From assembly GCA_019912885.1 (NCBI GenBank), contig JAIOHV010000006.1, forward strand, positions 62,001-126,000: a stretch of 64,000 nt of DNA. Direction: 5' to 3'. Numbering within the stretch: position 1 is the first letter of the stretch; the number at the start of each line of letters is the position of its first letter. Source of the stretch: a bacterium (GTDB lineage: Bacteria; Lernaellota; Lernaellaia; JACKCT01). Shown piece after piece: positions 50,243 through 64,000 of the stretch. The position numbers and the translations under genes were made by a program. The notes beneath the pieces are model-generated. The model saw only the letters and a list, made by a program, of their open reading frames with translations, was not told the origin of the DNA and ran no database searches.

Positions 50243-50593
50243 GATCGTCCCCACACCCGATAATTGTGTCCGCCCCGAGCGCGCCCTCGCGCTTGCCGAT
50301 CGCCAAGACGCCTGGACGGCTCGGCTCGTTCGGTGGCGTCTATTTGTTACGGATAACGCGCCGGCAGGAACCGTCGCACTACTTCTGTATTATCGGTCAC
50401 TTCGAAATATTCTTTAATTACGACGCGTAGGGGTAGGGAACGCGCAGGCGCAAATGGCAGGGGGGCGCCAAAACGGGCGTCGCGACGCGGGGAGCATGGA
50501 TATTTGGGGGGAAGCCGCCGAGTGGAATCGAACCACCGACCACCTCCTTACCAAGGATCGAGATGCGTAGAAAATATGTCGTTAAATCAATGA
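50243..50593. other. 351-bp junction between the chromosome and the mobile element
   Basis: It holds the upstream region of the sensor kinase, then non-coding sequence, the tRNA-Thr fragment at 50513-50557 and the 3' flank of the integrase gene. The A/T-rich stretch 50338-50425 (TTTGTTACGGATAACG, TATTCTTTAATTACG) could contain the kinase operon promoter, but I cannot place -35/-10 boxes safely. Confidence 0.5.
50513..50557 (-). other. attL-like site: 3' fragment of a tRNA-Thr(GGT) gene
   Basis: On the minus strand the sequence reads as the tRNA 3' half. Anticodon loop TTGGTAA (50554-50548) has anticodon GGT, followed by stem GGAGG, variable TGGTC, T-stem GGTGG, T-loop TTCGATT, T-stem CCACT and acceptor strand CGGCGGC (50520-50514). 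The 5' half (acceptor, D-arm) is absent: after three paired bases of the anticodon stem the sequence diverges. This is the usual footprint of a tyrosine integrase inserting in a tRNA gene. Confidence 0.8.
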
Positions 50594-51688
50594 CTAATGT
50601 GACTGCATAATCGCGTTGACAATAGGTTTGCAGGATGGGAGGACCGAGAGGGCGGCTTTGAGGTCGGCGTCGGTGATGCGGGCGTAGCGCTGCTCCACCG
50701 TGGAGGCGAAGGCCAGGTCCTTCCCCCAGCCGAGAACGACGCGGCGGTATTGGTCATCGACGCCCGCGCGAAGCAGCTCCATGTGGAAGGAAGCGCGCAG
50801 ATCGTGGAGGCGAAAGGGGATGCCGGCTTTTTTCGAGGCGCGCTGGATCGCCTTCCGGATCGAATCGACGGGCACCGGCCTGATTTTCTTGCCGGCCTTG
50901 TAGGTGATGACGCGGCCGGACGCCTTGCGCGGGCCGAAAACCTCAAGGAGTCCCTCGCGGATGGGAATGCGGCCGACCGCCTTGCGGGAGGCCGCCTGCG
51001 TCGCGGTCGGGTAGATCATCCCGTCGTCCGTGATCTGGCTCCAGTCAAGGGCGAGGACGTGGCTGTGCCGAAGCCCGGTGAAGCGGGCGATGAGCATCGC
51101 GCGCTTCACGTGGTCGGCGCGGCCGCGGCAAAGTTTGACGAGCTGCTCGTCGGTGATCTCCCGGTGAACGGGCGACGCCTCGGGCAGGCGGTCCACGTAT
51201 TTGCAGGGGTTGTGCGGAGGGCGGACGCGCCCGCTTTTGACGCCGTAGGTGAACACCGCGGACAGGACCGTGATCTCCCGGTTCACCGTTGCCGGCGCGA
51301 TTTTCTTCCCGTGTTTTGTCTTTTCGTCCTTGCGCGCGCGCCGGTATTTTTCGATGTCGTCGTAATCGATGTCCGCGACGACCCGGCGCCCCCACCGCTC
51401 CTCGAAGCGATCGAGGATCCAGCTCTCGGCCTTTTCAAAACTCGCCTTGGATTCGGCCGCGTGCTTCCGGTACGCCTCGACAAGCGTCGCGAAGGTGATC
51501 GCCCGCCCGTGGCCGGCAAGCCGCTCGGCGAGTTCACCTTGCAATTTGTGCTCGACGTCTTTTGCCTGCCGCATCGAGCCGTAAACGACCTTGTGCCTTC
51601 GGACGAGCCGCCCGTCGATGACGCGGGAGACGTCGACGATGTAGCCCTTCAGGCCGGTGCGGGGATGGGCGTGGGGACGGATGGGCAT
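50594..51688 (-). CDS. int: Tyrosine-family site-specific integrase
   Basis: 364 aa. The N-terminal arm-binding and core-binding regions (TFATLVEAYRKHAAESKASF, TVNREITVLSAVFTYG) are followed by the catalytic domain with Arg in FTGLRHSHVL, HxxR in RLHDLRASFHME and the nucleophile Tyr in TVEQRYARI. The Lys-turn (YPTATQAASRKAVGRIPI) is also recognisable. It should catalyse integration and excision at the adjoining tRNA-Thr site. It is the last gene of the leftward operon, 5 bp after the SIR2 gene. Confidence 0.95.
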   Translation of the reverse strand: MPIRPHAHPRTGLKGYIVDVSRVIDGRLVRRHKVVYGSMRQAKDVEHKLQGELAERLAGHGRAITFATLVEAYRKHAAESKASFEKAESWILDRFEERWGRRVVADIDYDDIEKYRRARKDEKTKHGKKIAPATVNREITVLSAVFTYGVKSGRVRPPHNPCKYVDRLPEASPVHREITDEQLVKLCRGRADHVKRAMLIARFTGLRHSHVLALDWSQITDDGMIYPTATQAASRKAVGRIPIREGLLEVFGPRKASGRVITYKAGKKIRPVPVDSIRKAIQRASKKAGIPFRLHDLRASFHMELLRAGVDDQYRRVVLGWGKDLAFASTVEQRYARITDADLKAALSVLPSCKPIVNAIMQSH

Positions 51689-51693
51689 GGTAG

Positions 51694-53451
51694 CTATGGC
51701 AAGGAGCCAAGCTCATCAAGTTTAACATAATCGAATAAGTATCGAAAATTGAGTCGTTCGAGTTTGCCGATAGCCTCGGTATACTTCTTTTTAAATTCAT
51801 CAGCGCTTGACGCTCCGATTGCAAGAAGCAGCTTCTTAAAAAAAGCGTAACTCGCGGCGCGGCGCAATAAAATTGGCGACTGTTTTAAATAAATGAGCGT
51901 CATTGGGTACCACAATCGACCTTCGTTCATGGCCGATCGCGCAAATAGAAAAAATTCTGCCTCCATGAAATCATCAAATGAAAGTAATCGTGCCAAGCGG
52001 CCGCTTATGTATCGATAATTTATCGTATCTGCAGCTACGGAGACCTGACGCTTTCCAGTCAATCTTGAATTGCGAAGGTCGTCGAGCGAACGAAGGTAAG
52101 ATCGAAATTCCGTAAAATGCTTATACGGGTCGGGGCGTCTATCGTCGGAAAAAATTTGACGAGATAGCAAGCGATTTAATTCTTCCCATCGCTCGAATCG
52201 AATTAAAGCCGCAATGAATGCAACAAACATTTCCCACGCAGCAAACCGGAATCCGTCGAAGTCGGTGTCTGAGAATCTTCCTCCTGGAAAACTCTTTGGC
52301 AGATCGCACAATGGCAGAATGTAACCAAATCCCTCATATATCGCGTCATTGACTTGCGGAATTCCGAACTCGACGGCTTCGATGATCGCTTCGATAAAAG
52401 ACGCCACGATTTCCTCGGCTGATTCGATTTGCGCAACAATCGCATCATCCTCATATTCGTATTTCGAAAAGTCGGGGCGCGTCTTTTCGAGCGCGCCAGC
52501 AACTCCTTTCATATAATTCGTGTATTTTGCGGCGATTGCTGCGTGGTTTTGAGAGCCCAACAGTTTCATTGTTGAATCGCGCAATTCGGCGACGGACGGC
52601 TGTCCCTCAAGCGTCCCGGCAAGTGCATCCAAGCGATCAGCCGCGTCCAAAAACGAACGCAGAAAGTCGGCGGCTCCGATACCCGTGACACAATCAGAAT
52701 TGGTGCGAGTGAGATATTCGTCGACGCTCGGAATTGGGGCATTTGGGTCGATCCAGCAGAGCGGAAAGTGATTCGTCTTGCGTCTCTCTATGATCGACTG
52801 AAGTCCCTTATCAAGGCCCGCGTAGCCAAGGACGATTACGCCGTGCTCGCTAAAGCGTCGTCGCAACTCCGCCGTCATTTTTTTGGGGAGGGCCGCGAGT
52901 TCTGCCGGTGTTACCCTGAGCAAATCACCCCGATCGAGTGATCCGTGCGGTTTGTATATACGAACGCGATAACAGTGCTCCAGCGGCTCGCACCCTTCGA
53001 CGTCCGCGTCCGAAACGATGACTTGCGGTTTCAGATTCTTTGCGTGCAACGCGTTCTCGATGCAGCAATCGAAATTGGTCGTAACAATCGCTCGTAAAAT
53101 GCCGCGTCGCGCGAGTTCGGCAATCAATTGATGGGCTTCGCCTGCCGGTTTGCCGCCGATGTAGTCGTCGAGAAAACTTCGGCGTTGTGCATCCGTCGAA
53201 TAAATCTCCGACGTCAATTCGGAAAAAGATTTTTCGGCATATTCGCTCCCCAAAAACCACGCCTCAAGCATATCGGGATCCGGCCGGCCGGTTCGGCCCT
53301 TTAGGACGTACAGTTTGGCGGCAATTTCCATCATCAGATCCCACGCGGTGTGAATACCGGCGTCTTTGGATACGCCGGCGCCAACGACGAGAATCCACTG
53401 CTTTTTGCCCGGGCGAGCATTAGCGGCGAGGCGGATAATGCTGCGGTCCAT
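51694..53451 (-). CDS. SIR2-domain protein, probable NAD-depleting anti-phage effector
   Basis: 585 aa. The N-terminal SIR2_2-like domain has GAGVSKDAGI at 24-33 (NAD loop), TTNFD at 124-128, KPHGS with the catalytic-type His at 169, and VLGYAGLD at 207-214. The C-terminal 330 residues are helical and unlike any domain I know; they may sense the trigger. SIR2 proteins in Thoeris, DSR and related systems deplete NAD during infection. This one lacks SLOG, APAZ or HerA neighbours. Visibly A+T-rich compared with flanking genes, so probably acquired separately. Confidence 0.88.
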   Translation of the reverse strand: MDRSIIRLAANARPGKKQWILVVGAGVSKDAGIHTAWDLMMEIAAKLYVLKGRTGRPDPDMLEAWFLGSEYAEKSFSELTSEIYSTDAQRRSFLDDYIGGKPAGEAHQLIAELARRGILRAIVTTNFDCCIENALHAKNLKPQVIVSDADVEGCEPLEHCYRVRIYKPHGSLDRGDLLRVTPAELAALPKKMTAELRRRFSEHGVIVLGYAGLDKGLQSIIERRKTNHFPLCWIDPNAPIPSVDEYLTRTNSDCVTGIGAADFLRSFLDAADRLDALAGTLEGQPSVAELRDSTMKLLGSQNHAAIAAKYTNYMKGVAGALEKTRPDFSKYEYEDDAIVAQIESAEEIVASFIEAIIEAVEFGIPQVNDAIYEGFGYILPLCDLPKSFPGGRFSDTDFDGFRFAAWEMFVAFIAALIRFERWEELNRLLSRQIFSDDRRPDPYKHFTEFRSYLRSLDDLRNSRLTGKRQVSVAADTINYRYISGRLARLLSFDDFMEAEFFLFARSAMNEGRLWYPMTLIYLKQSPILLRRAASYAFFKKLLLAIGASSADEFKKKYTEAIGKLERLNFRYLFDYVKLDELGSLP

Positions 53452-53462
53452 TATATTCCCGA

Positions 53463-53972
53463 CTAACCGATTAAGGGCATGCCGTTGATGCCCCAGTTCC
53501 CCATCGGGTAACGCTGAATTGAATTTGCAAGATTAATTTGGGCGTGCGGCACATTTTGTACGGTTGGAAGCCAAGTGCGCGCAGCGTCAACTATATCGCC
53601 GCAAAATATATCTATCCTTAATTGAAGTACAGGGGCACTGGATGCGTGAATAATATTATTGTGTATCGCATCCGGCGGTTCGACAAAAACAATCCTGTGC
53701 CGGCTTTTCCGGTGATTTGTCAGGCCCTGGTGGAGCAGCGAGCAGCGAAAATAATAACAGTCGAAGCCGGTAAGAAAAATTTCTCCTCCCCACCCTGCGT
53801 ATTTAGACGCGACATATCGGTCAAACCAGTCTTGATATTTCATTCCGGTTGCCTGTCCGTCTACGGATTCAATCGCGCCGCAAATATCAGGAACAGAGAG
53901 TGCTGTAAATAGTGCAGCGAAATATGCGTCTTGAGCAATTGCATAATTAATCGCGTTTAAAAGTTCGTTCAT
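53463..53972 (-). CDS. Unknown small protein with R-x4-H motif, partner of the SIR2 gene
   Basis: 169 aa, A+T-rich like the SIR2 gene. The core contains WFDRYVASKYAGWGGEIF and then DCYYFRCSLLHQG, where Arg76 and His81 form an R-x4-H pattern reminiscent of HEPN RNases; this similarity is weak and unverified. The C-terminal half contains HRIVFVEPP and LQLRIDIFCGDIVDAARTW. GGAG for its start lies in the end of the ImmA-like gene. The SIR2 start follows after 11 bp, so the two genes should be made together. Confidence 0.75.
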   Translation of the reverse strand: MNELLNAINYAIAQDAYFAALFTALSVPDICGAIESVDGQATGMKYQDWFDRYVASKYAGWGGEIFLTGFDCYYFRCSLLHQGLTNHRKSRHRIVFVEPPDAIHNNIIHASSAPVLQLRIDIFCGDIVDAARTWLPTVQNVPHAQINLANSIQRYPMGNWGINGMPLIG

Positions 53973-53976
53973 ATTC

Positions 53977-54651
53977 TTACTGCTCCGTTGTTATAAGCAC
54001 AATCCGCAACACCTCCGCCGCCCCAGCCGGCGGTATCCGGTACGCCTCCACCGCCTTTCCCGCGCGGGCGACGGTGACTTTGGACTCCCCCAGGTAGGCG
54101 CGGCCGAGGGCGAGGTATTCGGCGTTGGTCAGGGCGAGGTCCGAGCGGTCGGACTGCTTGGGCCCCATCCGCCATTTCACCCGGCCGTTGTCGACGACGG
54201 TGATGACGAGGTCGTCGCGGAAGTGGAGCAGGCGGCGGGCCAGGGCCTCATGGCTTGCCTCGGGAAAGGCTTTTTTGAGTTCGAAGAGGTCGGCGCCGGC
54301 GCGGACCAGGCGCTGGAATTTCGGGCGCGGGATGAGAAGGGCCGCCGCGCCGCGGTCAAAGAGCTTTTCGTCCTCGTGCGTGACGGTGAAGCCCCGCAGG
54401 CGGACCAGGTGCTCCAGGATCTCGTGCGCGATGACAAACTGCCGGCGCTCGCGGCTGGATTTCGCGTTGACGTGGATCTCCGTCCCCTTGCCGGTGTCGA
54501 CGAGCGCCCCGCCGAACTGCCGGTTGTTGTCGCGGCGAAATCGGACGACAAGGCCCAGGCGGTCGGCGAGCTTGTTCGGGTTCTCTGTCCCGTGCTCGCG
54601 GACCAGGTTGTTGGCGATCTCCTCGACGACGCGGGCCGTCACGCGCGGCAT
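53977..54651 (-). CDS. ImmA/IrrE-like protein with shifted metal motif
   Basis: 224 aa from MPRVTARVV, chosen because GGGAGGGG lies just before it; an ATG 27 bases upstream is also in frame. The layout is that of ImmA/IrrE peptidases (NPNKLADRLGLVVRF, then RRQFVIAHEILEHLV). The metal site reads HEILEH, i.e. H-E-x-x-x-H instead of the usual H-E-x-x-H. ImmA cleaves the element's repressor to release it. The gene lies between the XRE repressor and the SIR2 pair, matching the int-immA-immR order of ICEBs1. Confidence 0.83.
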   Translation of the reverse strand: MPRVTARVVEEIANNLVREHGTENPNKLADRLGLVVRFRRDNNRQFGGALVDTGKGTEIHVNAKSSRERRQFVIAHEILEHLVRLRGFTVTHEDEKLFDRGAAALLIPRPKFQRLVRAGADLFELKKAFPEASHEALARRLLHFRDDLVITVVDNGRVKWRMGPKQSDRSDLALTNAEYLALGRAYLGESKVTVARAGKAVEAYRIPPAGAAEVLRIVLITTEQ

Positions 54652-54735
54652 GTTTTCCCCTCCCGTACTTTCCTTCATTTCGCATCTCGACTTGAGTCGG
54701 TGCCCTGTCTCACGCGGAGACGCGGAGGCCGGGGC

Positions 54736-54832: not shown

Positions 54833-55321
54833 TCACAGGTTTTTCCCCATCCGGTACGTCGCCAGAAAGGAATCCAGCAGAAACGGCGTGATCTTCTTGG
54901 CCTGAAAAAGCAGGTTGCGAAGAAACGCGACCTCGTCGGCCTGAAGATGCCGCCTGCGCTCGGCGATGTAGGCCTCGACCTCCGGGTAGCGGGACTGCTC
55001 GCGCGCGGGCGGGGCTTTCGCGGCCCCGGCCGATTTTTGCAGATGCCCCAGTTCCTTGCCGATGACCTGCTTCGCGCGGCCTTCCTCCAGGGCCTCGTAT
55101 TCGTAAACCAGCTCCCAATAATCCGGGTCTTCTTTTATCGCCTCGGCCATCTTGCGCACCAGCTCAAGCGACGGCCCGGGCGCGTCTTCGCGTTCGGCGC
55201 GGGAGATCGTCCCGTAATGAACGTCCATGGCTTTTGCCATTTCGGTCTGCGTAAGGCCGAGCCTCTCCCTTGCGTAAACGGCAAATTGCGCGAGCGTTTT
55301 TGGCCGGGATTCCGGTGACAT
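54833..55321 (-). CDS. XRE-family repressor (ImmR/CI-like)
   Basis: 162 aa from MSPESRPKT; an ATG 9 bases upstream is alternative. The HTH is at about 20-75 (TQTEMAKAMDVHYGTISRAERED). The C-terminal half (EVEAYIAERRRHLQADEV) is helical and could be the oligomerisation or ImmA-cleavage region. It is divergent from the next HTH gene, with 103 bp between, forming the element's lysogeny switch. Leftward it leads the operon with the ImmA-like, SIR2 and integrase genes. Confidence 0.88.
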   Translation of the reverse strand: MSPESRPKTLAQFAVYARERLGLTQTEMAKAMDVHYGTISRAEREDAPGPSLELVRKMAEAIKEDPDYWELVYEYEALEEGRAKQVIGKELGHLQKSAGAAKAPPAREQSRYPEVEAYIAERRRHLQADEVAFLRNLLFQAKKITPFLLDSFLATYRMGKNL

Positions 55322-55388
55322 GGAAGACATTTCCTACCACGGGGGGCGGGCGCGGGAAACCTTTTTTGAGAAAGAATCAAAAAACTTC

Positions 55389-55418
55389 TTGACAGGCAAA
55401 GCAATGCTGTGCTTAGAT
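55389..55418 (+). promoter_or_regulatory. Rightward promoter with overlapping palindrome
   Basis: TTGACA at 55389-55394, an 18-base spacer and TTAGAT at 55413-55418, extended by TGC. The start codon of the next gene is at 55425, 7 bases after the -10, so the mRNA is probably leaderless. The spacer holds AGCA-A-TGCT (55100 series: 55400-55408) and AAGCA...TGCTT (55399-55414), likely repressor-binding sites. Confidence 0.65.
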
Positions 55419-55424
55419 CGGCCC

Positions 55425-55706
55425 ATGCCCGAAACCAACCCCTTCGATTTTGAAAATCTGGCGCGGCTGCGCGAGGAGCGCGAGATGTCCATGGAGGACG
55501 TGCTCCACGGCCTGTCCCACGCGGGCTGCCGCATCTCCCGCCCCACGTACGCCGATATCGAATCCGGCAAGACCGTGCCGCGCCTGGACGTGGTCGACGC
55601 CCTTGTCCGCGTGTTCGACGTTCCGCGCGATTTTTTTTGGCCCGAGACAGAGCAGAGCGGTGATGTGTCGCATGACGGAAGCGACGACCATGCGAGGAGC
55701 GCCTGA
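55425..55706 (+). CDS. XRE-family HTH regulator (Cro-like)
   Basis: 93 aa from MPETNPF. An HTH at about 10-60 (LARLREEREMSMEDVLHGLSHAGCRISRPTYADIESGKT) and a short tail with DFFWPETEQ. It is the first gene of the rightward arm, opposite the repressor, which is the position of Cro. No ribosome-binding site stands before the ATG, in keeping with a leaderless transcript. The next gene overlaps its stop. Confidence 0.85.
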   Translation: MPETNPFDFENLARLREEREMSMEDVLHGLSHAGCRISRPTYADIESGKTVPRLDVVDALVRVFDVPRDFFWPETEQSGDVSHDGSDDHARSA

Positions 55707-55984
55707 TGGCCGCCCGCCGTCCCGTCGCGATCCCCAAGCGGGGCTACACGGTCGAGCAGGCCGCGCACTACCTCGGCGTCGGCAAGTCCGAGGTCTACGG
55801 AGCGATCGAGCGCGGGGAGCTGCGCCACCGGCGGACGGCAAAGGAATTCGACCCCGAACGCTTCACGCGGGGCCGGCGCGGGAAGGGGCGGATCCTCATC
55901 GACGTGCGCGACCTGGACGCCTTTTTTGAACGATTTCCCGTCTACGGCGGCGAGGCCAAAAGCTCGCGCGCGGTGGGCCAATGA
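55706..55984 (+). CDS. Small HTH protein, excisionase-like
   Basis: 92 aa. A MerR/HTH_17-type winged helix: YTVEQAAHYLGVGKSEVYGAIERGEL followed by RILIDVRDLDAFFERF. This type includes excisionases and DNA-bending factors. Its place right behind the Cro-like gene, on the opposite strand from int, suggests Xis. It could also be a plain DNA-binding regulator. Confidence 0.75.
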   Translation: MAARRPVAIPKRGYTVEQAAHYLGVGKSEVYGAIERGELRHRRTAKEFDPERFTRGRRGKGRILIDVRDLDAFFERFPVYGGEAKSSRAVGQ

Positions 55985-58085: not shown

Positions 58086-59219
58086 ATGACCGACTCCATC
58101 TTCCGCGAGACCGCGAAAGCCGAAGGCGAGGGGATCAGCTTTCCCGACGAACTGCAGCGCGCCTTCGAGGGCAACGCCGCGGCCTCGCCGCCCGCGCGCC
58201 CCGCCCCCGTGGACGGGAAGGACACGCTCACCTATTCGGCGCTTTCGACCTTCCGGAACTGCCGGAAGAAATTCGAGCTGCGCTACGAGCGACACCTCGC
58301 GCCGCTGGCCCGCGACCGCGCCCTGGTTCTCGGCGACGCGGTTCACGCCGCGCTCGAGGCCTGGCACCGCGACCGCGACATCGGATACGCCCTGGATGCG
58401 ATCGACGAAAAGCATCCGGATTGCCACGCCGACCCGAAAGAAAAATCCCGCTGGCATCTCGCGCGCGCGATCATCCGCAATTACGCGCGGCGATATCCGG
58501 CCGAGGAATTTACCGTCGGCGAGCTTGAGAAGGTCTTCGTCGCGGAGATCGTCAACCCGGCCACGGGGGCGAAGTCCCGGACCTTCAAGATGCGCGGAAA
58601 GATCGACGGGATCGTGAAGCTTGCCGACGGCTGGTACATCCTGGAGCACAAGACCGCCGCGACGATCGACGGCGGCTACATCGAAAAGCTCTGGACCGAT
58701 TTCCAGATCGCGCTTTACGCGCACTACGCGACCGAGGCGCTTGGCGTGCCCATCGCCGGGATCCTCTACAACGTCATCGCCAAGACGCGGATCGAGCAGC
58801 GCGCCGGCGAAACGGAGGAGGAATACCAGGCGCGGTACCACGATCTCGCGGCGAAAAACAAATCGGGCAAATCCACGGCGACGCGCAAGACGCCCGAGAG
58901 CGACGAGGAGTTCGAGGCGCGCCTTGACGAGTGGTACGCGAAGCCCGAGGCCTTCCATCGAGAGAAGCTCTACCTCTCGCCGGACCGCATTCGCCTTCTC
59001 ACCGCGGAGATCTGGGAGCTGACGCAGCAGATCCTCCACGCGCGCCGCGCGGGCGCGTTCTACCAGAACACCGCCTTCTGCTTTCTCTACAACAAGCCGT
59101 GCCCGTTCTGGGCGATCTGTTCCTCGAACGAAAACCCCATCGTCATCGAAAACCAGTTCGAAATCCGCCCGCCGCACGAGGAGCTCGGCGCGGGCGACGA
59201 CAAGGAGACAAACGGATGA
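58086..59219 (+). CDS. PD-(D/E)xK nuclease, Cas4/RecB-like with iron-sulfur cysteines
   Basis: 377 aa. The nuclease core shows His87 (GDAVHAALEAWH), Asp174 (GKIDGIVKL) and Glu187-x-Lys189 (YILEHKTAA). Four Cys (59, 332, 339, 345) are placed as in AddB/Cas4 iron-sulfur clusters, with the last three in CFLYNKPCPFWAIC. Such phage enzymes resect DNA ends to feed the recombinase. The next gene overlaps it by 4 bases. Confidence 0.88.
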   Translation: MTDSIFRETAKAEGEGISFPDELQRAFEGNAAASPPARPAPVDGKDTLTYSALSTFRNCRKKFELRYERHLAPLARDRALVLGDAVHAALEAWHRDRDIGYALDAIDEKHPDCHADPKEKSRWHLARAIIRNYARRYPAEEFTVGELEKVFVAEIVNPATGAKSRTFKMRGKIDGIVKLADGWYILEHKTAATIDGGYIEKLWTDFQIALYAHYATEALGVPIAGILYNVIAKTRIEQRAGETEEEYQARYHDLAAKNKSGKSTATRKTPESDEEFEARLDEWYAKPEAFHREKLYLSPDRIRLLTAEIWELTQQILHARRAGAFYQNTAFCFLYNKPCPFWAICSSNENPIVIENQFEIRPPHEELGAGDDKETNG

Positions 59220-60109
59220 GCCTTTTACCAACGCAAAAGACGCCGCGAAAAACCGATCTTTCCGACACGACGATCATGATCTACGGCCCGCCGAAGATCG
59301 GCAAATCCACGCTCGCCTCCGAGTTTCCCAAGGCGCTGTTCCTGGCGACCGAAGAAGGGCTCGCGCACGTCGAGGTCTTCCAGACGCAGATCGACTCCTG
59401 GGCGAGGTTCAAGGCCGCGTGCGCCGAGCTGGCCGAGGGGAAGCACGACTTCCGCACCGTCGTCATCGACACGATCGACAATCTCTACCGCATGTGCGCG
59501 GACGCGGTCTGCGCGGAGAACAAGGTCAAACACGTCGGCGACATCCCCGGCTTCGGCAAGGGTTACGCGCTCGTGAACAACGAGTTTCATCGCGTCCTCA
59601 CGGCGCTTTCCCGGCTGCCGTACGGCCTCATCCTCGTTTCGCACTCCAAGCAGACGGACGTGGAGACGCCGACCGGCTCGCACACGAAGACGGTCTCGAC
59701 GCTGCCGGAATCCGCGCGCCGCGTTGCGATGGGACTCGTCGATATGATCCTTTACTGCACGCAGATCGCCGTCGAGATCGACGGCGAGAAACAGGAGCGC
59801 CGCGCGATCCTCACCAAGCCCGCGCGCGGGCACGAGGCGGGCGACCGGACCGGCAAGCTCCCCCCGGTCATCCCGATGAACTTCAAGGATTTCAAGGCGG
59901 CCTTCGATGTGGCCGTCGGATCTCCGAATGCGGGGGGCGGGGCCAACGCTCCCTTGAAGGACGGCGCCGTGCCTGCGTCCGCCGCCCGTCAAGGCGCCCC
60001 GGCGAAAGCCTCGTCCCCCGCGAACTCCGATCCCAAAGCCGCGAACAAGCCCGAAGCCAAAACCGAAACGCCGAACCCCGCAGAGGGCGGGGCCGCGGCC
60101 AGCGCCTGA
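59216..60109 (+). CDS. Sak4-like RecA-fold ATPase
   Basis: 297 aa. Walker A is GPPKIGKST (24-32), and VVIDTIDNLYR is the Walker B. The core stops near residue 230; the rest is a low-complexity Ala/Pro/Lys tail. Phage Sak4-type proteins promote single-strand annealing together with an SSB-like partner, here probably the DUF669 protein. This is a functional guess from fold and neighbours. Confidence 0.85.
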   Translation: MSLLPTQKTPRKTDLSDTTIMIYGPPKIGKSTLASEFPKALFLATEEGLAHVEVFQTQIDSWARFKAACAELAEGKHDFRTVVIDTIDNLYRMCADAVCAENKVKHVGDIPGFGKGYALVNNEFHRVLTALSRLPYGLILVSHSKQTDVETPTGSHTKTVSTLPESARRVAMGLVDMILYCTQIAVEIDGEKQERRAILTKPARGHEAGDRTGKLPPVIPMNFKDFKAAFDVAVGSPNAGGGANAPLKDGAVPASAARQGAPAKASSPANSDPKAANKPEAKTETPNPAEGGAAASA

Positions 60110-60139
60110 CAACAACGACAACAAGGAAAGGCAAAACAC

Positions 60140-60652
60140 ATGGCGACCAACGAACACGAAGCGACGACCGACATCGGCGCCGACCTCGCCGACTTCGACG
60201 AGGCGTACGAAACCGCCCCCGTGGAGGAGCGCGGCGAGGTGCCCGACGGGAAGTATCAGGTCCGCGTCGAGCGCGCTGAATTGAAGCGCACCAAGGAAAC
60301 GAGAAAGCCGATGCTTGCGCTCCAGCTTCTCGTCGCCGGCCCGACGCACGCCGGCCGGAAGATCTTCCGCAACTCCGTCATCGGAAGCGAGGACAACGTC
60401 CGGTTTCTCAAGCAGGACCTCCACACGATGGGGGTGAACGTGCCGAAGCTCAGCGCGCTCGGCGAGCACCTCGAGGAGATGGTCGGCCTGGGGCTCGACG
60501 TCCAGGTCAAGACCAAGGACGGGTACACGAACGTCTACATCAACGGGAAGTGCGCCCTGCCGGAGGGCGCGGCCGGCGGCGGGACGGATTTCGGATTCGG
60601 CGCGAACGCGAGCGACGCCGAGATGTCCGCGGCGATGAACCAGTTCAAATAA
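60140..60652 (+). CDS. DUF669-family protein, probable ssDNA-binding partner
   Basis: 170 aa, AAGGAAAGG upstream. GKYQVRVERAELKRTKETRKPMLAL and KIFRNSVIGSEDNVRFLKQDL match the DUF669 pattern of phage recombination operons, which is seen as an SSB-like protein. The tail (GGGTDFGFGANASDAEMSAA) is flexible, as in SSBs. It follows the Sak4-like gene. Confidence 0.85.
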   Translation: MATNEHEATTDIGADLADFDEAYETAPVEERGEVPDGKYQVRVERAELKRTKETRKPMLALQLLVAGPTHAGRKIFRNSVIGSEDNVRFLKQDLHTMGVNVPKLSALGEHLEEMVGLGLDVQVKTKDGYTNVYINGKCALPEGAAGGGTDFGFGANASDAEMSAAMNQFK

Positions 60653-60656
60653 AAAA

Positions 60657-60762
60657 TTCACCGCGAAGGCGCAAAGTGTCAGAGCCGCAAGCGACAGCGC
60701 GCGGTCGCATGGCCGAACTGGTGTTCGGCGTTCCCAGGCTTCGCGCCTCCGCGGTGAAAAAA
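60657..60762. repeat. Interspersed repeats after the DUF669 gene
   Basis: TTCACCGCGAAGGCGCAAAG (60657-60676) is in direct orientation and CTTCGCGCCTCCGCGGTGAAAA (60740-60761) is its inverted mate. They fill the 121-bp gap and could form a long stem. Confidence 0.75.
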
Positions 60763-60773
60763 CGAGGCGGGGC

Positions 60774-60986
60774 ATGCTGATCTTCAAGGTTTTCGTCAAC
60801 AGCAAACCCATCAACGAGATTCACGTCGCCAACATCGGCCGCGTGACGGCGGGCGAGCACGCCTACCGCATCATCCACCCGATGGACTACGCGCACCTGG
60901 GCCCGATCGTCCACGAGCGCCGCGAGGGGCACATGGTCCTGTTCGAGAAGGTCGCCCGCGCGATCAACGAGGCGGACGGGGAATGA
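60774..60986 (+). CDS. Unknown 70-aa element protein
   Basis: A small soluble protein (MLIFKVFVNSKPINEIHVANIG, then HPMDYAHLGPIVHERREGH). The composition and frame look real, but the family is unknown. It lies between two repeat-filled gaps. Confidence 0.6.
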   Translation: MLIFKVFVNSKPINEIHVANIGRVTAGEHAYRIIHPMDYAHLGPIVHERREGHMVLFEKVARAINEADGE

Positions 60987-61191
60987 AAAGGAATTGCGAA
61001 TGGGGAATGCGGAATGCGGATTGCCATCGCAAAGGCGCATTCACCACGGAGAACACCAAGGACACGGAGGAAGTTGTCACCCTGAGCGAAGCGAAGGGTC
61101 TCGCCCGTTTGGAGCGGGGCGGTGAGGCCGTTGCGACGGCTCTCAATCCTCAATCCTCGTCGCGTTTCTTCGCGCCTTTGCGGTGAAAAAT
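60986..61191. repeat. 203-bp repeat block before the ERCC4 gene
   Basis: Five repeat units stand in a row: GAATTGCGAAT/GGATTGCCATCGC (60986-61031, also at 1166), TTCACCACGGAGAACACC (61040-61072), CACCCTGAGCGAAGCGAAGG (61076-61106), TCAATCCTCAATCCTC (61138-61160, also in the his gaps) and CTTCGCGCCTTTGCGGTGAAAA (61169-61191). No gene or promoter seen. Confidence 0.8.
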
Positions 61192-61765
61192 GACGCCCCC
61201 GAATTTCACCATCGTCGTCGACTCCCGCGAGCAGCAGCCCTACGGCTTTGACGGCATGTCCCTGCGCGCGACGCTTCCCGCCGGGGACTATTCCGTCGCC
61301 GGTTTCGAGGATGCGATCGCCGTCGAACGCAAGACGCTTGAGGATTACGTGCGAAGCGTCATCCGCGAGCGCGAGCGCTTCCACAAGGAGATCGCGCGGC
61401 TTTCGAAGATGCGCTTTGCCTGCATCGTCGTGGAAGCGTCCTTGCCGGAGATGACCTCCGGGGCCTACCGCTCTGGGGTCAATTCCTTTTCCGTTTTCGA
61501 AGCCGGCCTCGCCATCGAGATCGGCTTTGGAGTCCCCGTCCATTTCTGCGGCGACCGCCAGCACGGCATCCGCTTCACGAAATCGTATCTGTTCCGAGCC
61601 GCCGAACGTCTTTACCGCGAAGGCGCGGAAGAGGTTCACCGCGAAGGCGCAAAGGACACGAAGGCTTCCCCTTCCGTGCCCGCCGCCGAATCCAACGACA
61701 CAAAGGCTTGTCATCCTGAGCGAAGCGAAGGATCTCGCCGCGCAACCCAAGGAGCATCGTCATGA
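61190..61765 (+). CDS. ERCC4-type nuclease with repeat-derived tail
   Basis: 191 aa. The ERCC4/XPF nuclease core has VVDSREQQP at 10-17 and the VERKTLEDYVRS block with Glu46-Arg47-Lys48. It makes structure-specific cuts in DNA. The part after about residue 140 (YREGAEEVHREGAKDTKAS and CHPERSEGSRRATQG) is translated interspersed repeat. The next gene overlaps (ATGA). Family members occur in phages beside RecD-like helicases. Confidence 0.85.
   Translation: MTPPNFTIVVDSREQQPYGFDGMSLRATLPAGDYSVAGFEDAIAVERKTLEDYVRSVIRERERFHKEIARLSKMRFACIVVEASLPEMTSGAYRSGVNSFSVFEAGLAIEIGFGVPVHFCGDRQHGIRFTKSYLFRAAERLYREGAEEVHREGAKDTKASPSVPAAESNDTKACHPERSEGSRRATQGASS
61710..61740 (+). repeat. Interspersed repeat within the ERCC4 gene
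   Basis: GTCATCCTGAGCGAAGCGAA followed by GGATCTCGCCG, close to the copies at 54736 and 61076. It is read through by the ERCC4 gene and encodes CHPERSEGSRR. Confidence 0.8.
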
Positions 61766-62634
61766 GCAGCATTCCGCATCTGTCGAACGTCGAGATTGAG
61801 GTCGCGGTCAAAGCCGCCGTCGGGAAGACCTACGACGAGTCGCACGAGGCCGCGCTTGGCAATCTGCCCGGCGCGGTCATGGACGCTCTCTGCGAAAACG
61901 TCGGCAAAGAAATCGGCCGCGCGGTCGACGGCATCCGTGATCGCCACATCGCCGTCGAAGGCGCGGTCGGGAACATCGCCATCAAGCCGGGTAAGCCCGC
62001 GAGCATGACCGTGGAGGTCGCCGGCGGGCGTTACACGATGATGAATCTCTGCGACCTGGCCGGGCAGACGGTCATCGTCTTCGGCACGCAGCGCGGCCTG
62101 TTCGCCGACGCCGAGGAAGACGAAAGCGCCGACACCGCCCCCGTGGAGGGTGCGCCCGGCGAGCCCCACGCCCATCCGATCGTCGTCGACAAGAAGGTCG
62201 TCATCAATCCGGCGCCGAACATGATCCTCACGGCTCTCAAGGATATTTCGGCGAAAGGCGAAAAAATCCTCGAGGCCGGGCAGATGATCCAGGTTGCCGA
62301 GGCCGACGAGGAAAAGATCGTCACCACTGACGGCATCACCGTGAAGCGGCGCTCCTGGAAGGCGCTCGGTTTCGACGAGGCGATGCAGCCGGCCCCCGGC
62401 GCGGACGTGCGCGAGGCGCTGGCCGAGGCCATCAAGGCGAACGCCCAGGGTGACGCCGAAAAAGGCGGCGATCCGGCCACGGGGCAGGGCGATGCGGAAG
62501 GCGCCGATCCGATCGTCCCCGCCGTGAACGGTGAGCCCCATGCGGTGAACAGGCCGGACGATGCCGGCACGGAAGATTTTTACCGCGAAGACGCCAAGGA
62601 ACGCGAAGTCGCCGCAAACGAGGCCGGCGCGTGA
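61762..62634 (+). CDS. Unknown element protein, partly repeat-encoded
   Basis: 290 aa, ATG overlapping the ERCC4 stop. The N-terminal 110 residues (EIEVAVKAAVGKTYDESHEAA, GGRYTMMNLCDLAGQTVIVFG) look globular. The region from about 110 is acidic and Ala-rich. The end (EDFYREDAKEREVAANEAGA) comes from the TACCGCGAAGACGCC repeat. I recognise no family. Confidence 0.6.
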   Translation: MSSIPHLSNVEIEVAVKAAVGKTYDESHEAALGNLPGAVMDALCENVGKEIGRAVDGIRDRHIAVEGAVGNIAIKPGKPASMTVEVAGGRYTMMNLCDLAGQTVIVFGTQRGLFADAEEDESADTAPVEGAPGEPHAHPIVVDKKVVINPAPNMILTALKDISAKGEKILEAGQMIQVAEADEEKIVTTDGITVKRRSWKALGFDEAMQPAPGADVREALAEAIKANAQGDAEKGGDPATGQGDAEGADPIVPAVNGEPHAVNRPDDAGTEDFYREDAKEREVAANEAGA

Positions 62635-62648
62635 ACGCCTTTTCTCAT

Positions 62649-62715
62649 AACCCCTTGGCGCACCCTTCGCGCCTTTGCGGTGAAAATTCTTCGCGTCTTC
62701 GCGGTGAAAACGCAT
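62649..62715 (+). repeat. Two CACCGCGAAGG-family units before the helicase gene
   Basis: Two inverted units in tandem, CGCGCCTTTGCGGTGAAAA and TCGCGTCTTCGCGGTGAAAA, end right at the start codon region of the helicase gene and provide no typical ribosome-binding site. Confidence 0.7.
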
Positions 62716-64000
62716 GACCCCCGAAGCCCTCGCGACACCCCCCCTGATTCCGGACGACGCGGCCCAAAGGCCCCCGACCATCCGCGGCCGCGTCGTCCGC
62801 CTTTTTTTCGAGACCCCGGAGTTTTGCGCGGGGCGATTCGAGACCGAACAAAAAGAGACGATTTCTTTTTCCGCGAAATTCCACGTCGGCCCGGGCGAGC
62901 ATCTGGTTCTCACCGGTGCATGGAAGACGCACCCGAAATACGGGATGCAGTTCGAGGCCGAAACCGCGATCCGCAATCTTTCGCTTTCCGGCGAGGGCCT
63001 CGCCTCCTACCTCGCGAACAATCCCGACTTCAAATTCATCGGCCCCGTTCGCGCCCGGAAGATCGCCGAGGCCTGCGGCGAGGATTTTGAACGGACGATC
63101 GTCGAGCGGCCGGAGCACATCGCGCAAATCGCCGGTATCCGGCTTGCCGACGCGCTGAAGATCCAGGAGGTGTGGGAGGCGCGCCGCGCGTTCAACAACG
63201 CCTCCACGCAGCTTTCGGCGTTTGGCCTCACGCACCGGCAGGTCGAGACGCTGCTCGCGAAATACGGCTCGGACGCCGTCTCCATCGTGAAGAACAATCC
63301 CTTCATCCTGGTTCGGGAGCTTGACGGCTACGGCTTCAAGCGCGTGGACGAGATCGCCCGCCGCTCCGGATTCCCGAAGGACCACACCTCCCGCGTCCGC
63401 GCGGGCGTCGTCTGGTGCGTGATGGATGCGCTCGACGCCGGGCACACCTGGATCGAGCTTCGCGAACTGATCGACGCGGCGAACAAGCTGCTCATCCTGG
63501 ATCGTCCGGACGCAAAGGACATCATCGAGGCGGAAATCGACGAGCTGGTCCGGATCGGCGCGCTCGTGATGCACCCGGGCGCGGGGCGCTTCCTCGTGGC
63601 CCTTCCGTCCGTCCGGGAGGCGGAGCTTGCCGTCGGGCGCTTCCTGTCCGCCGGACGGGAGATCGAAGACGGCATCGAGCGGCGAGGGCTGCTCGCCGAC
63701 AACCCCCACGCCCTTTCCATGCTCGGCGCCGAAAAGCGGATCCTCGATCGCGAGGTCGGGGCGGAGCTGAACGACGGGCAAAGGCAGGCGGTCCTGGCCG
63801 TCCTTCGCAACCGCGTCTCCGCGATCGTGGGCGCGGCGGGATCGGGAAAGACGTTCACGGTCCGGACGATCGTCGAGCTATTCGAGTCCTACGATCTTTC
63901 CGTCACGCTCTGTGCCCCCACGGGGAAGGCCGCGCGCCGCATGACCGAATCGACCGGGCGGGAGGCCTCCACGATCCACCGCCTGCTCGGCTACGACGGG
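62714..64000 (+). CDS. RecD-like (RecD2/TraA-type) helicase, N-terminal part
   Basis: 429 residues visible; the gene runs off the right edge. The N-terminal OB-like domain (GRVVRLFFETPEFCAG to YGMQFEAETAIRNLS) and helix-hairpin-helix parts (FIGPVRARKIAEACG, NPFILVRELDGYGFKRVDEIARR) are those of RecD2. The SF1 helicase core starts with LNDGQRQAVLAVLRNRVSAIVGAAGSGKTFT (Walker A at about 373-380) and motif Ia TLCAPTGKAARRM. It would move along single-stranded DNA 5' to 3' in the element's recombination set. Confidence 0.9.
   Translation, partial: MTPEALATPPLIPDDAAQRPPTIRGRVVRLFFETPEFCAGRFETEQKETISFSAKFHVGPGEHLVLTGAWKTHPKYGMQFEAETAIRNLSLSGEGLASYLANNPDFKFIGPVRARKIAEACGEDFERTIVERPEHIAQIAGIRLADALKIQEVWEARRAFNNASTQLSAFGLTHRQVETLLAKYGSDAVSIVKNNPFILVRELDGYGFKRVDEIARRSGFPKDHTSRVRAGVVWCVMDALDAGHTWIELRELIDAANKLLILDRPDAKDIIEAEIDELVRIGALVMHPGAGRFLVALPSVREAELAVGRFLSAGREIEDGIERRGLLADNPHALSMLGAEKRILDREVGAELNDGQRQAVLAVLRNRVSAIVGAAGSGKTFTVRTIVELFESYDLSVTLCAPTGKAARRMTESTGREASTIHRLLGYDG

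Follow-up and report, generated by a model that had tools for sequence, protein, structure and literature searches.

The tRNA-Thr(GGT) fragment and its intact counterpart

Part of a tRNA gene standing beside an integrase gene raises the question of whether it marks the end of an integrated element and, if so, where the other end and the intact tRNA gene are found. The window, that is, the whole stretch of 64,000 nucleotides analysed here, sits on contig C6 of genome G000 (4.8 Mb, 230 contigs). The fragment in it is very probably the displaced 3´ end of the host tRNA-Thr(GGT) gene, marking the integrase end of a tailed-phage prophage of about 80.1 kb. The two features at this boundary are as follows.

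50513..50557, minus strand: 3´ part of tRNA-Thr(GGT), positions 28–72, read as displaced; 45/45 identity to the intact gene on contig C197
50558..64000, plus strand: window part of the ~80.1-kb prophage, which goes on along C6 to 134269 and then along C197 from 67986 down to 9597

The minus-strand letters of 50513–50557 are TCCTTGGTAAGGAGGTGGTCGGTGGTTCGATTCCACTCGGCGGCT. When the genome of the window was searched, a second exact 45-nt copy came up at C197:9552–9596 (E 8.4e-17), contained in an intact 72-nt tRNA-Thr(GGT) gene called by ARAGORN at C197:9525–9596. With the whole tRNA as query, just two places in the genome are recovered, this gene and the fragment, and only one intact tRNA-Thr(GGT) gene was found in G000. 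A first-pass annotation, made from the letters of the window, had recognized the minus-strand match to the tRNA 3´ part and predicted an intact gene with the identical 45 nt to the right of the window; the search for the repeat and the tRNA finder that it proposed bear out the match, the presence of the gene and its orientation, but the gene lies on a different contig, past a contig break.

The identity between the fragment and the intact gene spans positions 28–72 and breaks off abruptly at both edges. The anticodon loop (TTGGTAA) is covered in full, as is the discriminator base T; CCA is not encoded. The reach to the tRNA 3´ end had been read correctly at first, whereas the start had been placed at the anticodon loop; the copy really begins 3 nt earlier, inside the 5´ strand of the anticodon stem (TCC). 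Since ARAGORN calls no tRNA anywhere in the 64-kb window, the fragment lacks the tRNA 5´ half, as had been claimed, and no intact tRNA runs across 50.5 kb. The distance of 36 bp given for the integrase gene is exact, measured to its stop codon.

Joining of two contigs into one element

Only 8,269 bp of C6 remain beyond the right edge of the window, which means that the far end of the element must be sought on a different contig. C6 at its right end and C197 at its right end (reversed) both contain the 14-mer GACCCGCCCCCCCG, once in each stretch. The reading frame stays open through this 14-nt overlap, which splits a single primase–helicase gene between the contigs, with an AEP-primase/PriCT gene (Pfam) on C6 and a helicase-like gene on C197. 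Immediately beyond the 14-mer, three bases of C197 mismatch C6 and are taken as a contig-end error. A protein segment read across the join matches phage proteins in one unbroken alignment, the best match covering residues 8–345 of the 345 in the query.

Gene order points the same way. Three sister prophages were compared, two in the same genome (G000:C150, L091–L092; G000:C57, L093–L094) and one in the same-family genome G002 (G002:C25, L096–L097). In each of them, one contig carries homologues of the C6 genes and, after these, homologues of the C197 genes, their order preserved up to the terminase. On these sequence comparisons, and short of read evidence, the join is taken as established. 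So joined, the element measures 80,088 bp, to which one 45-nt core is added, and it has the intact tRNA and the identical 3´ fragment in direct orientation at its two ends. The second copy would accordingly lie about 80.1 kb from the fragment, inside the range of about 100 kb originally allowed for it.

Gene content of the prophage

The genes of the element that fall in the window begin with the integrase and lead through a lysogeny region into replication functions.

50594..51688, minus strand: tyrosine integrase, 364 aa (Pfam PF00589 and Int_N; PHROG integrase, 3.8e-40)
51694..53451, minus strand: SIR2-domain protein, candidate anti-phage defence cargo (Pfam SIR2_2; PADLOC PDC-S65, 4.6e-57)
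53463..53972, minus strand: protein of unknown function (PHROG 18591)
53977..54678, minus strand: M78 (IrrE-like) peptidase, lysogeny region (Pfam PF06114)
54833..55330, minus strand: repressor-like HTH protein (Pfam HTH_3; PHROG transcriptional repressor)
55320..55706, plus strand: HTH regulator, divergent from the repressor (Pfam HTH_3)
55706..55984, plus strand: HTH_17 protein (Pfam HTH_17, 9.4e-11)
58086..64000 and past the window end, plus strand: replication/recombination genes, namely PD-(D/E)XK nuclease, AAA_24, DUF669, ERCC4 nuclease and RecD2-like helicase (Pfam)

The tyrosine integrase gene lies inside the element. Its product carries the motifs TGLR, HDLR, LGW and EQRY, with the nucleophilic tyrosine at about residue 335, and no solved structure matches it by sequence. 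The HTH_17 protein is excisionase-like by fold family and may act as the excisionase. The order of the replication/recombination block matches that of the sister prophages. On C197, PHROG families identify the terminase large subunit, portal, head maturation protease, major head protein, tail sheath, tape measure and baseplate, and an N-acetylmuramidase gene is found near the tRNA end. The element is a tailed-phage prophage and, judging from these families, its tail is probably contractile. Scans of genome and viral collections found no relatives of the integrase, the terminase, the baseplate protein or the gene upstream of the tRNA.

Some genes stand apart from this core. The SIR2 gene and its small partner (51694–53972), located between the integrase and the repressor, have a GC content of about 50%, compared with 62% for the element; they are likely anti-phage defence cargo, and none of the other six genomes of the phylum contains a close relative of the SIR2 gene. 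Between the terminase and the helicase genes, a 271-aa serine recombinase is encoded at C197:57373–58188 (L013:17373–18188), 29–31% similar to the N-terminal part of the serine integrases of the sister prophages. Several genes read from the sequence as glycosyltransferase-like (C197; L009:10880–14894) separate the tail genes from the muramidase towards the tRNA end of the prophage.

Chromosomal flanks

When an element enters a tRNA gene in its 3´ part, one boundary of the element has to be the 3´ end of the regenerated tRNA, and the other the 5´ end of the displaced fragment. Here the integrase and the phage genes are on the 5´ side of that fragment, at coordinates above 50557, and a histidine kinase gene and chromosomal genes occupy its opposite side. 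At the far end, the C197 sequence upstream of tRNA-Thr is similar to that of G002 up to the tRNA, where the similarity stops. Because the phage genes stand on the 5´ side of the fragment and the similarity to G002 ends at the tRNA, both ends fit the insertion geometry.

The same-family genomes G001 and G002 carry an identical intact 72-nt tRNA-Thr(GGT) without an exact second copy, which lends some support to the prediction that the unoccupied site would be the plain tRNA; the downstream flank of G000 is not conserved there. The G000 counterpart of the gene that follows the tRNA in G002 stands 98 kb from the fragment, so G002 provides no synteny check of the downstream flank. This displacement looks like an ordinary chromosomal rearrangement. 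The genes downstream of the tRNA in G002 (G002:C27:59731–64079; L065, L066) correspond to G000:C6:10–14 kb (L071), with their relative orientation kept.

A second island at C6 14–112 kb was considered and rejected, as no further tRNA-Thr remnant was found near C6:14 kb. The predicted proteins of this stretch read as products of core genes (histidine biosynthesis, DNA polymerase III, guaA/guaB). With such genes, the stretch looks like rearranged chromosome and not an element.

Proposed attachment mechanism

Tyrosine integrases use paired core sites. The phage attP would have carried a 45-nt copy of the tRNA-Thr(GGT) 3´ end, which the integrase would have recombined with the tRNA gene. The crossover most likely took place within the 7-nt anticodon loop TTGGTAA, to judge from the edges of the repeat; the loop is flanked by the stem palindrome CCTCC/GGAGG, which would supply the paired core sites. 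The phage copy would then have rebuilt the tRNA gene at the far end (C197:9525–9596), and the original 3´ end of the host tRNA would have been displaced to 50513–50557. According to this model, the attP circle would read as the integrase-end sequence, the 45-nt core and then AATGAGAAAACCC, and the empty attB as the tRNA followed by TCCCCCCAAATATCC. The element may still be able to excise.

Besides the core, the two element ends have a short word in common.

50620..50632, minus strand: 13-mer TGCAAACCTATTG, putative arm-type site, within the 3´ end of the integrase gene

On C197, TGCAAACCTATTG recurs 130–142 nt past the intact tRNA. It is the longest word common to both ends, and a length of 13 nt was reached in none of 2000 shuffles. 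The word is probably an arm site to which the integrase would bind. A strong terminator-like hairpin, contributed by the element side, stands right behind the regenerated tRNA.

A comparable element and the attachment class

Among the seven genomes of the phylum, the integrase has only one strong relative, in G005, with 63% identity over 79 C-terminal residues. Behind the G005 integrase gene stands an exact 42-nt copy of tRNA-Arg(ACG), starting at the anticodon loop, and since a related integrase thus adjoins a tRNA copy beginning at this point, the anticodon-loop mechanism gains support. The intact tRNA-Arg(ACG) gene of G005 is on another contig than the copy. The 12-mer TCTTGTCAACAG is repeated inside both ends of the G005 element and is probably the arm site of that integrase. 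This element sits in tRNA-Arg(ACG) of G005 (L073 on G005:C7 and L098 on G005:C45).

The repeat takes in the tRNA from the anticodon loop, or shortly before it, through to the 3´ end (positions 28–72 here; 42 nt, from the loop, in G005), and the element belongs to the anticodon-centred attachment class. This is class A in Islander (PMC4383910); the sublocation classes are those of Williams 2002, as relayed in PMC8371274. In the same review (PMC8371274), the anticodon loop corresponds to the 7-bp overlap region and the stem to the core sites. As in other class A elements, the regenerated tRNA is at one end, the displaced 3´ fragment at the other and the integrase gene inside, and the repeat takes in the whole anticodon loop. 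In contrast to them, the integrase gene here adjoins the displaced fragment rather than the regenerated tRNA, and the host comes from a little-sampled group; otherwise there is no substantial difference. The phage is new, while the mechanism is well known and ordinary. The result fixes both ends of a new prophage of 80 kb, apparently complete, from a bacterial phylum that is poorly known, and a tRNA fragment of this kind can help to pair contigs in a fragmented assembly.

Alternative explanations

It would take an extraordinary coincidence for the 45-nt match to be due to chance, or to be a decayed tRNA pseudogene without any tie to a mobile element. Nothing was found in favour of this beyond the bare possibility, and it has to contend with 45/45 identity (E 8.4e-17) ending exactly at the tRNA 3´ end, an integrase gene 36 bp away, phage genes on one side with chromosome on the other, and the comparable case in G005. 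Highly improbable, too, is that the late genes on C197 come from a different prophage also located at the tRNA, C6 and C197 then not forming one element. G000 does harbour at least two other related prophages and its assembly leaves the two contigs unjoined. However, the 14-nt overlap is in frame and in the middle of a gene, the alignment runs across the join in one piece, the gene order is identical in three sister prophages and the 13-mer is common to the two outer ends; moreover, C150 and C57 already have their own copies of the early genes.

The element may also be a defective phage remnant or a non-phage island that is no longer mobile, which we consider unlikely. The foreign composition of some cargo genes, with 50% GC where the element has 62%, would suit such a remnant, but the integrase frame is open with its catalytic motifs present, the 45-nt repeats are identical, and the packaging, head, tail and lysis genes are present with open frames. 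Loss of mobility would alter only the activity of the element, leaving unchanged the reading of the site as a displaced tRNA 3´ end at the boundary of an integrated prophage.

Sister prophages and named relatives

The sister prophages share with this prophage the order of the replication and packaging genes, and their terminases are 43–44% identical to the one here. They differ in having large serine integrases instead of a tyrosine integrase (510 and 700 aa; frame-broken in G002). Among named phages, the best terminase match is Microcystis phage MACPNOA1 (KY697807), with 29.8% identity over 91%; this kinship is only distant, and there is no close named phage.

On balance, we favour the view that this phage lineage of a little-sampled phylum swaps its integration modules as complete units and retains the genes for replication and packaging, and that related tyrosine integrases also change the tRNA (Thr-GGT, Arg-ACG) but keep the anticodon-loop position. 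A tmRNA gene at G000:C150:26691–27049 (L091:6691–7049), a possible target of the C150 prophage, stands about 2.5 kb away from the serine integrase of the latter.
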